Positions 35,529-39,240 of a stretch of DNA of 64,000 nucleotides are shown here, piece by piece. The DNA is from Leptolyngbya sp. BC1307 (GTDB lineage Bacteria > Cyanobacteriota > Cyanobacteriia > Phormidesmidales > Phormidesmidaceae): contig NZ_NRTA01000015.1 of assembly GCF_002286735.1 (NCBI RefSeq), forward strand, positions 1 through 64,000. The letters run 5' to 3'. The position numbers were made by a program, and so were the translations under genes. Below the pieces are notes generated by a model that was not told where the DNA came from, did not search any database, and saw only the letters and a list, made by a program, of their open reading frames with translations. Every line of letters starts with the position of its first letter. Position 1 is the stretch's first letter.

Positions 35529-36635
35529 TTATACTTCGTTACCTGAAGAACTAGCAATCGTTAAAGCCGGCAATTTTTTTACCCAGGCTTGGCGATAGAT
35601 CTCGTAGAGAGCCATGCCAGTCGCCACAGATGCATTGAGGCTAGGCGTTTTGCCCCGTAGCTCAATCGCTACCAGCGAATCACAAAGATTTTGTACCGAT
35701 AGGCTCAGACCGGCTCCCTCAGCCCCTACCACCAAGACAACAGGGGCGGAAAAGTCAGCGGTGTGAATCGGCTGCGCGGCTTCGGCAGCTAAGCCGTAAA
35801 TCCAGAACTCACTCTTTTTCAGGTATTCTAACGATCGCCCTAGATTCACAACTCTAGCAATAGGAATATTCTCCAAAGCGCCAGCGGCCACTTTAGAAAC
35901 AGTAGAGGTGACCCCCACTGCTCGCCGCTGCGGGATCACGATCCCCTGAGCGCCAATGGCCTCTGCTGAGCGAATAATCGCGCCTAAATTATGCGGATCG
36001 GTAATGCCATCAGCGGCAACAATCACCGGGCGGCGAGCCGCTGCTTTGGCCTGTTCCACCAGTATCTCTAGCTCGACATATTCGTAAGCTGCTACCTGAG
36101 CCACAATGCCTTGATGGCTGGCTCCCTGTGTCATCTGAGACAGGCGCAGGCTGTCAACTTCATCAATCACCGCCCCGTTAGCCTTGGCTTCTACAATCAA
36201 GGGGCGAAAGCGGGAATCGTAGCGGAGCTTGGCATTAATCCAGAGGCGATTGAGCGATCGCTTAGCGGCGATCGCCGCTTCTACTGAATGACGGCCATAG
36301 ATCAGGTCTGGTTTAAGATCTTCTAGGGCAGTATCGCCATCTTCAATATCGTCGCGACGGCGGTCTCTAAAATTTTCGCCAGAGGCGCGGTCAGATCTGG
36401 GCTTGCCAAACGACTTACCGGGCTTAGCGGGAACTCTCCCTTTGGCTAGCTGCGGGCGGTCCGACTGCTTAGGTCTGCTGCTGCCAGTAGACTTTCCAGT
36501 AGACTTTGATTTAATTCTTGGCTTTGACCCAGCGTTAGAACTGGCGCTGGTACGAGGTTTAGGGCCTGATTTTCGGTGGCGAGAAGGTTTCGAAGATGGT
36601 GCTGAAAAATCGGATGGATGCTCTGGGCCGCTCAC
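35529..36635 (-). CDS. rlmB: 23S rRNA 2'-O-ribose methyltransferase (TrmH/RlmB family)
   Basis: A 368-residue SPOUT methyltransferase. A long, basic, disordered N-terminus (about 1-105, Ser/Lys/Arg/Pro-rich) precedes the substrate-binding domain ([22 protein letters not shown]) and the SPOUT core: [20 protein letters not shown] (motif 1), [12 protein letters not shown] (motif 2) and [20 protein letters not shown] (motif 3, knot). It most likely methylates G2251-type sites of 23S rRNA. GTG 36635 is favoured over TTG 36668, because AGAGGA lies 7 bases before GTG. It may share a transcript with mini-RNase III. Confidence 0.9.
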
Positions 36636-36826
36636 GCGCAATTCCTCTGATAGTTCCTGGTCTGACAATTCCTTTGGAGCTGAATACTCTTACAACCAGT
36701 GTAGGCGGACTGATACCTGATGGGTATGACGTTTAAGTCACAATAAAACATCTAATGTTGGGAGATCTATAACCTGCTGCAGAGATAAACTGGCAGACCT
36801 TAAGTACCTCCAGGTCAGAAAGGGGC

Positions 36827-37387
36827 CTATATTTCCAACCGATTCAGCAAATTGAGCAGGCGAGGCTGATCGTTGAGATAGAGAAAACCGACTAAAGCCT
36901 CAAAACCAGTGGCTTTTTGATACTCTTTGGCTCCTACTCGGCGATGGCGGCCAGAGGTCGCATTTCGCCCGCGCCGCAAAATTTCTTTCTCTGCGTCGCT
37001 TAAGTAGGGGATAAGGACATCTGCGTACTCTGCCTGCTGTTCGGCTTTAACCTCAGCGACGACCTGCTGGTGGTAGTGGCGGATGCGCTTAGCGGGAATC
37101 AGGAGGCGCGATCGCACATACAGCTCAAAAACGGCATCGCCTATGTAAGCCAGAGAGATGGGTGCAATCGAACCTGTCCGAGCAGCCGAAAGCTCATCCC
37201 CTAGCGGCGTGTTAATCAACTGAGTGAAACTGTCTTGCCCGCTCTCTTGAGCGGGATCAGCCGCTAACTCTTTGTCTGGTGGTGACGGCGGAACATTGGC
37301 TGATGAATGATTGGACGGCAGCTGTACCACAGTGGATTTTGCCAGAAACAGCAGACAGCCGCCTTGCCCATGGCCGCTGAGCCCCAA
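36827..37387 (-). CDS. mrnC: Mini-ribonuclease 3 (MrnC)-like protein
   Basis: A protein of up to 186 residues with an RNase III catalytic domain but no dsRNA-binding domain: ISLAYIGDAVFELYVRSRLL (about 76-95) with the catalytic Asp/Glu helix, RNATSGRHRRVGAKEYQKATGFEALVGFLYL (about 138-168). Mini-III trims 23S rRNA precursors in Bacillus and probably here. The N-terminal 60 residues are variable. The start is a TTG at 37387 in the longest form; GTG 37330 is an alternative; neither has a clear ribosome site. Confidence 0.8.
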   Translation of the reverse strand: MGLSGHGQGGCLLFLAKSTVVQLPSNHSSANVPPSPPDKELAADPAQESGQDSFTQLINTPLGDELSAARTGSIAPISLAYIGDAVFELYVRSRLLIPAKRIRHYHQQVVAEVKAEQQAEYADVLIPYLSDAEKEILRRGRNATSGRHRRVGAKEYQKATGFEALVGFLYLNDQPRLLNLLNRLEI

Positions 37388-37494: not shown

Positions 37495-37863
37495 CTAAAG
37501 CTTTTTCAAGTTTTCGATGGCGGCATCTACATTGGGCTGCAAAGATAAAAACTGCTCTAATCGAACCAGCTTAACCGTTTGCGTCACCCGAGGATTGCTG
37601 ACCACTTGGAGGCTACCGCTCTCGCCTTTGGCCTTTTTAACCAAGCGAACCAGTGCGCCCAGGCCAGAACTGTCAACAAAGTCAATTGTGGACAAATCTA
37701 GGATGATATGAGCTGGGCCATCTTCAATGTACTTATTGATAACCTTCAGAAAAGTTGGCTCTGAAAAAGCATCTAAAAGCCCGGTGAGGCGAAAAATTTG
37801 ACATTTTCCCCTAACTTCGCGGGTGCCTCTAAGACTAACTGTTAGGGTGAGCGACTCAGCGAT
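37495..37863 (-). CDS. STAS-domain anti-sigma factor antagonist, probable ATC start
   Basis: A 122-residue STAS protein. From the proposed start it reads xAESLTLTVSLRGTREVRG, then QIFRLTGLLDAFSEPTF, HIILDLSTIDFVDSSGLGAL (Ser65/Ser66 in the phosphorylatable DSSG) and VTQTVKLVRLEQFLSL. Such proteins release partners by partner switching with a kinase. The family start aligns with codon ATC at 37861-37863. AGGAGG lies 7 bases before it; an in-frame TAA lies 15 codons upstream, and no ATG, GTG or TTG occurs between that TAA and a TTG inside the domain (37695). Confidence 0.85.
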   Translation of the reverse strand: MAESLTLTVSLRGTREVRGKCQIFRLTGLLDAFSEPTFLKVINKYIEDGPAHIILDLSTIDFVDSSGLGALVRLVKKAKGESGSLQVVSNPRVTQTVKLVRLEQFLSLQPNVDAAIENLKKL

Positions 37864-37870
37864 GGGAGGA

Positions 37871-37876
37871 CCTCCT
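37871..37876 (-). promoter_or_regulatory. Shine-Dalgarno AGGAGG placing an ATC start
   Basis: On the minus strand AGGAGG (complement of 37871-37876) is followed by TCCTCCC and then ATC. The strong site at ideal spacing is the main reason to accept the non-standard start. GGAGG and the following CCTCC are complementary but too close to fold on themselves. Confidence 0.75.
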
Positions 37877-38025
37877 GATGTGCCTAGCGTTGAACGACAA
37901 TATGACGCTTAAGTATAGGTCAAGATACTATCGACTGCAAGATAGAATTTAGTCTTGCGGTATATCCCTCTCAAGACATGGCTATTATGCCCGCCACTGG
38001 GGCATTCTCTTGCAGACAAAATAAA

Positions 38026-39240
38026 TCATTGCGTCGTTTTTGCGGATGCTTGCCGCTCGCGCATGGCCTTTACAAAGTTGGCAAACAGGTAGTCAGCATC
38101 GTGGGGGCCAGGACTCGCTTCGGGGTGATATTGCACAGAGAAGACGGGCAACTGACGGTGGCGGATGCCTGCGACCGTCCGATCATTGAGATTGAGATGG
38201 GTGATCTCGACCTGTGTTTCGTCAATAGAGTCGGCATCGAGCGCAAACCCATGATTTTGACTGGTAATTTCAATCTGCTCGGTGAGACCGCAGGGCTGGT
38301 TGAGTCCGCGATGGCCAAACTTAAGCTTGAAGGTTTCAGCGCCTAGAGATAGCCCCAAGATCTGATGACCCATACAGATGCCAAAGGTGGGTAGCTGACT
38401 TTCGACTAGCGCGCGGGTGAGCTGAGGCGCATTGGTGACAGCGGCTGGATCGCCTGGGCCATTGGATAGAAATATACCGTCGGGCCGGTAGCTCAATATC
38501 TCTTCTGCTGATGTGTCAGCGGGAACGACGGTCACATGACAACCATAGCTAGCCAGGCGTCTTAAGATGTTGCGCTTGATGCCAAAATCAACGGCAACGA
38601 CCTTTAAAGGTCGCTCTTCAGTGCTAGTAGCGGGAGGCTCTAGGACTACGCCAGGACTGCCGGGATCGGCTATAGGCTGGCTCTCAGCGCTGAAAGCCCA
38701 GCCCTGACCTGTGGCCTCGCGCCATTCATAGATCTCCTGAGTGGTGACTTCTCTGACTAAGTTCAGCCCTTCCATCGAAGGGAGGGTTTGTAGCTGACGC
38801 AGCAGTTCTTCTGGGTCAAGCACTTCACTGGAGATAGCGCCATTCATTGCCCCGGCGCTGCGCAATTGGCGGGTGAGGGCGCGCGTATCGATGCCGTAGA
38901 TGCCTGGGATAGAATGCGCTTTGAGATAATCGCTGAGCGATTGAGTTGATCGCCAGCTGCTGGGGCGATCGCAGATATTTTTGGCGATCGCTCCGCGTAC
39001 AAAGGGCCGAGCTGATTCTTCGTCTTCAGGATTGACGCCGGTATTGCCCAGCTCTGGATAGGTGAACGTGACAATTTGACCGCAGTAACTAGGGTCTGTC
39101 AGCACTTCCTGGTAGCCGGTCATTCCTGTATTGAAGACAACCTCACCCATCGTGGTACCCGCCGCTCCAAATGACCAACCTCGATAGATAGAACCATCTT
39201 CTAAAATGAGCAAAGCAGGCTGAGCAGCGGGATTAAACAT
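38026..39240 (-). CDS. carA: Carbamoyl-phosphate synthase small subunit
   Basis: A 404-residue glutaminase subunit providing ammonia for carbamoyl phosphate. The N-terminal CarA domain ([35 protein letters not shown]) is followed by the class I glutamine amidotransferase domain: [12 protein letters not shown] (oxyanion), [16 protein letters not shown] with nucleophile Cys, and the late [10 protein letters not shown] with catalytic His/Glu. It reads left and is divergent from the protease gene; carB is not in this window. Confidence 0.96.

Follow-up and report, generated by a model that had tools for sequence, protein, structure and literature searches.

The question raised by this locus is at which codon translation of a STAS-domain gene begins when its reading frame offers no canonical start ahead of the domain. 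The window analyzed, the whole stretch of 64,000 nucleotides from Leptolyngbya sp. BC1307 (contig NZ_NRTA01000015.1), carries this gene and its neighbors as follows.

37495..37863, minus strand: CDS of the STAS protein (122 amino acids, Ssr1600 ortholog), start ATC, stop 37497-37495, open frame
37861..37863, minus strand: initiation codon ATC, aligned across orthologs
37871..37876, minus strand: Shine–Dalgarno AGGAGG, 7 nt from the ATC
37864..37865, minus strand: di-pyrimidine CC at −2/−1
37909..37911, minus strand: in-frame stop TAA, 16 codons 5′ of the ATC
37693..37695, minus strand: first canonical in-frame codon, TTG (codon 57), an implausible start
38026..39240, minus strand: carA, upstream neighbor, canonical start, same strand wherever found
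36827..37387, minus strand: mrnC-like gene (mini-RNase III, named from its translation), downstream neighbor, same strand in 162/162 loci
35529..36668, minus strand: rlmB-like rRNA methyltransferase gene (named from its translation), next downstream, same strand in 127/127 loci

Reading frame and start site in Leptolyngbya sp. BC1307

The STAS frame is open on the minus strand between the TAA at 37911-37909 and the stop at 37497-37495. An earlier note on this DNA had claimed that no ATG, GTG or TTG occurs in it from the upstream TAA to the middle of the STAS domain, and this was borne out, the first such codon being the TTG at 37695. Read as its reverse complement, 37876-37861 gives AGGAGG TCCTCCC ATC and continues GCT GAG TCG CTC ACC. 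A search of the 64-kb window for (A)GGAGG-N5-9-ATH opening a frame of at least 60 codons returned the STAS gene as the sole instance.

The encoded protein is a STAS domain/anti-sigma factor antagonist, both domain criteria being met: the match to PF01740 (STAS) scored 63.2 bits against a curated cut-off of 22.6 and spanned residues 16–115, and that to TIGR00377 (NCBIfam ant_ant_sig) scored 58 bits against 53.45. The conserved phosphorylatable serine motif (DSSGLG) is present as VDSSGLGALV. A start at the TTG of codon 57 would cost about 40 residues of the Pfam match.

First codon and upstream signals in cyanobacterial orthologs

Orthologs were drawn from whole genomes and 80 named genome contigs, several of the genomes being MAGs, and the first codon of each was read at the ATC position, anchored on the protein alignment. 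STAS orthologs were found in 378 of the 388 genomes of the class Cyanobacteriia. After removal of identical sequences, 174 orthologs were left, ranging from close relatives to picocyanobacteria-like small genomes (family f2, 46–53% identity) and including many other families; counts refer to sequences and not to independent events. The first codon was ATT in 115, ATC in 46, ATA in 12 and CTG in 1, and in none was it ATG, GTG or TTG. The proposal that the gene starts at ATC with AGGAGG at 7 bases is strongly supported by this comparison, the aligned codon being AUH in 173/174 orthologs. At least 13 first-codon changes were placed on gene trees, all within ATT, ATC and ATA except for one CTG.

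A canonical alternative was sought in the 388 class genomes using a degenerate pattern, consisting of ATG, GTG or TTG followed by the conserved codons, the tail of which fits 168 of the 174 known sequences (sensitivity about 97%). A single genome (G176) matched, with ATG exactly at the AUH position; the site (L246, G176:C1:22062-22099) reads GGGAGGCGGTT ATG CCT GAA CAA CTG ACC and is preceded by GGGAGG. Since this ATG lies exactly where others have ATT, it locates the start codon independently. The earlier note had named ATG at the same place in relatives, along with read evidence for ATG here, as grounds for refutation; the one exception found confirms the position and does not refute the AUH start. 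In non-photosynthetic members of the phylum no ortholog was found; matches there were weak and at the level of paralogs (best 3e-9), so no outgroup start codon is available.

On the basis of these alignments, the position of the AUH start, the identity of its codon and its conservation can be regarded as established. It is very unusual for a near-cognate start to be kept, as here, by essentially all photosynthetic cyanobacteria sampled.

Two variants may be recorded in their own right. The ATG of G176 amounts to a natural codon swap at a conserved AUH position, and L180 (G368) has CTG as its first codon; it retains AAGGAGG, and 10 codons 5′ of the CTG lies an ATG in the same frame.

The same comparison bears on the possibility that the ATC is an artifact. 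Because six other genomes of the genus carry ATC at the same place and 173 of the 174 orthologs carry ATT, ATC or ATA, it is not a misread ATG, a possibility that the earlier note had raised together with a comparison of close relatives. The wider suggestion of a sequencing error or pseudogene in this genome found no support and retains next to no credibility: it is refuted by the codon comparison across the 174 orthologs, every genome of the genus shows this type of codon, as do genomes across the class, and the intact protein shares >90% identity with those of same-genus relatives.

Conservation around the codon was then considered base by base. Upstream of −12 each base carries about 0.1 bit of information; values are high at the Shine–Dalgarno, at the pyrimidine pair at −2/−1 and from codon 1 onward. 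AGGAGG was present in 137/174 orthologs and GGAGG, AGGAG, GAGG or GGGGG in almost all others, with a spacing to the start codon of mostly 5–9 nt. Two pyrimidines occupied −2/−1 in 168/174; a pyrimidine pair before the start has been proposed to act as a signal for initiation in cyanobacteria (PMC5622118). Amino-acid conservation sets in at codons 2–3, and codons 2–6 are conserved. Pro, Ala and Ser predominate at codon 2 and would permit removal of Met; codon 3 encodes Glu or Asp without exception. In 56 sequences an in-frame TAG at codon −4 overlaps the Shine–Dalgarno (TAGGAGG). No leader RNA element was detected, there being neither an Rfam match nor conserved sequence 5′ of the Shine–Dalgarno.

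A palindrome, GGAGGTCCTCC / GGAGGATCCTCC, lies over the Shine–Dalgarno in a few members of the group (the window at 37865-37875, L004 and L006), and a small hairpin is possible there. The GGAGGTCCTCC hairpin was rejected as a general feature, being absent from the close relatives L002 and L003.

Neighboring and paralogous genes served as controls. The genes carA-STAS-mrnC-rlmB, in this order, shared a strand at every locus where they were found. For carA, the start was canonical in 91/91 loci and AGGAGG occurred in 0/91, against 137/174 for the STAS gene. In the window's genome, the two paralogous STAS genes that were examined have ATG starts. Weaker controls, with N-termini that vary, were mrnC and rlmB, in which a canonical start lay ahead of the aligned part in 122/131 and 99/107 loci, respectively. 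Candidate anti-sigma kinase genes (PF13581) were left out of the comparison, their start codons being unresolved.

Relation to Ssr1600 and placement of the start

The best-studied counterpart to which the gene could be related is Ssr1600 of Synechocystis sp. PCC 6803. According to the published account (PMC12329169), Ssr1600 is an anti-sigma antagonist that binds Slr1861, is phosphorylated by it and controls formation of RNAP-SigC. The dose of Ssr1600 matters: cells overexpressing it grow more slowly in 3% CO2, and lowered levels rescue an rpoZ deletion mutant. In that work, Kurkela et al. give L24, G43, S59 and S60 as key residues and TTG as the initiation codon. These residues correspond to L30, G49, S65 and S66 of the window protein, with M1 of Ssr1600 set at codon 7, and TTG is found at codon 7 in two Microcystaceae-like loci and one Microcystis locus. 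Ortholog matches greatly outscored those to paralogs (E about 1e-8 for the latter) and synteny was conserved, meeting a one-to-one ortholog criterion. The fit of the residue numbering, together with a TTG at codon 7 in relatives that matches the published TTG, establishes the window STAS gene, as far as sequence comparison can, as the Ssr1600 ortholog.

The published TTG start thus contrasts with an AUH start 6 codons upstream in the orthologs. Judging from relatives, Ssr1600 as published is probably missing six N-terminal residues, with a conserved ATT/ATC start 6 codons upstream. An AUH start for Ssr1600 is not mentioned in the available part of PMC12329169.

That same TTG, as used in the Synechocystis literature (PMC12329169), is one of two observations favoring a start elsewhere, be it an upstream canonical codon, an upstream ORF joined by a frameshift, or an internal codon; the other is that some upstream in-frame NTG occurs in 37/174 sequences. 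We consider this very improbable. No NTG precedes the upstream stop in 136/174, and the upstream sequence is unconserved, which leaves no shared upstream ORF; an upstream start or frameshift was rejected given the in-frame stops, the lack of a conserved upstream ORF and the absence of anything conserved beyond the Shine–Dalgarno. The first internal NTG is scattered from codon 4 to codon 99, and an internal start was rejected on this lack of conserved position. Conservation of codons 2–6 and the G176 ATG at the AUH position also speak against any start other than the AUH codon.

IF3 and precedents for a near-cognate start

The gene for IF3, infC, has an AUU or AUC start and is autoregulated by IF3. 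The earlier note had offered infC as the known case, and the comparison proved apt. The sole infC match in the genome of the window (G000:C8:87250-87699, L232) encodes a divergent IF3 of the short type (E 1e-44); its frame has no canonical codon after an upstream TAA and starts GAGGAAAATACA ATC behind a GAGG site, the AUC start being established from the DNA itself. Short infC genes of other cyanobacteria likewise use ATC, ATT or ATA, preceded by a purine-rich site. In each of the 30 long-type infC loci examined, ATG, GTG or TTG precedes the domain in the same frame. Genomes of the same genus (G000-G006) gave matches to the short IF3 only and none to long infC, which suggests that the standard IF3 has been replaced by the short one in this genus; most genomes outside this lineage carry long infC with a canonical start. 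IF3 and the antagonist both being AUC-started in one genome is the arrangement expected if both were read by IF3.

We regard it as probable that a selected, IF3-limited AUH start keeps the antagonist Ssr1600 low, as with infC and sigR, although no expression, profiling, peptide or IF3-titration data are at hand. Initiator Met would be inserted at the near-cognate AUH codon (AUC in the window), placed by the strong Shine–Dalgarno, and this weak start would be kept by selection across the class Cyanobacteriia, with IF3 probably discriminating against the codon. The antagonist would then be scarce relative to its Slr1861-type anti-sigma kinase, preventing unwanted release of SigC, and its level may track the condition of the translation initiation apparatus. 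That the codon lowers translation, that IF3 governs it and that a small dose is advantageous are inferences; the low dose or initiation control suggested in the earlier note fits the data. Besides the conserved start and Shine–Dalgarno and the canonical starts of the controls, the AUH starts of the short infC genes, the sensitivity to Ssr1600 dose and the Streptomyces sigR precedent speak for this reading. Two findings weigh against it: AUH is not absolutely required, one genome carrying ATG, and, for the IF3 circuit, the type of infC varies by lineage, unlike the AUH start of ssr1600.

The main rival accepts the AUH start as real and takes it to fix a low translation rate, without a physiological regulatory role for the IF3 level. 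Retention of AUH in lineages that differ in IF3 gene content fits such a constant rate, as does the lack of a conserved regulatory RNA element (or Rfam match) upstream. A weak Shine–Dalgarno with AUG could, however, give constant low output just as well, and the strong conserved Shine–Dalgarno, along with the AUC-started IF3 gene of the same genome, fits an IF3-sensitive design. We hold a merely fixed rate to be unlikely, though not dismissed. More speculative, and in our view somewhat doubtful, is an extension of the IF3-limited reading in which the class-wide ssr1600 and the short IF3 gene, both keeping AUH, would belong to an ancient cyanobacterial regulon read by IF3; IF3 availability or ribosome state would tune SigC release, linking translation capacity to carbon-dependent growth control.

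The results point to a sigma-factor switch controlled at the initiation codon, in a globally important phylum. Many annotations of ssr1600 orthologs are predicted to be truncated, and ATG-started overexpression constructs of Ssr1600 would be expected to bypass native control.

Against known noncanonical starts, the case differs in several respects. Proteogenomics of Nostoc 7120 gave peptide evidence for ATT and ATA starts, with 8 revised genes, and the available part of that report describes no conservation of them (PMC8557916); the AUH start of ssr1600 may already figure in proteogenomic lists. Of about 69,000 ancestral start codons covered by one survey, only two had switched to AUU (PMC5622118). 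The genes discriminated by IF3, infC and sigR, have a conserved noncanonical start with a strong conserved Shine–Dalgarno, and ssr1600 has both features. With infC it shares an AUH start behind a Shine–Dalgarno, infC of its own genome starting ATC; infC, however, encodes IF3 itself, whereas ssr1600 encodes a sigma-factor regulator, for which control would be in trans. Closer in function is Streptomyces sigR, whose GTC start, behind an extended AGGAGG site, is repressed by IF3 (PMC5472188). For sigR, repression by IF3 at a near-cognate start within a sigma/anti-sigma system is already proven. Like ssr1600, it combines an extended AGGAGG with a near-cognate start in a system of this kind, where stoichiometry matters; unlike ssr1600, which carries AUH on the antagonist throughout a class, it carries GTC or GTT on the sigma factor itself, in the 34 Streptomyces genomes examined (PMC5472188).
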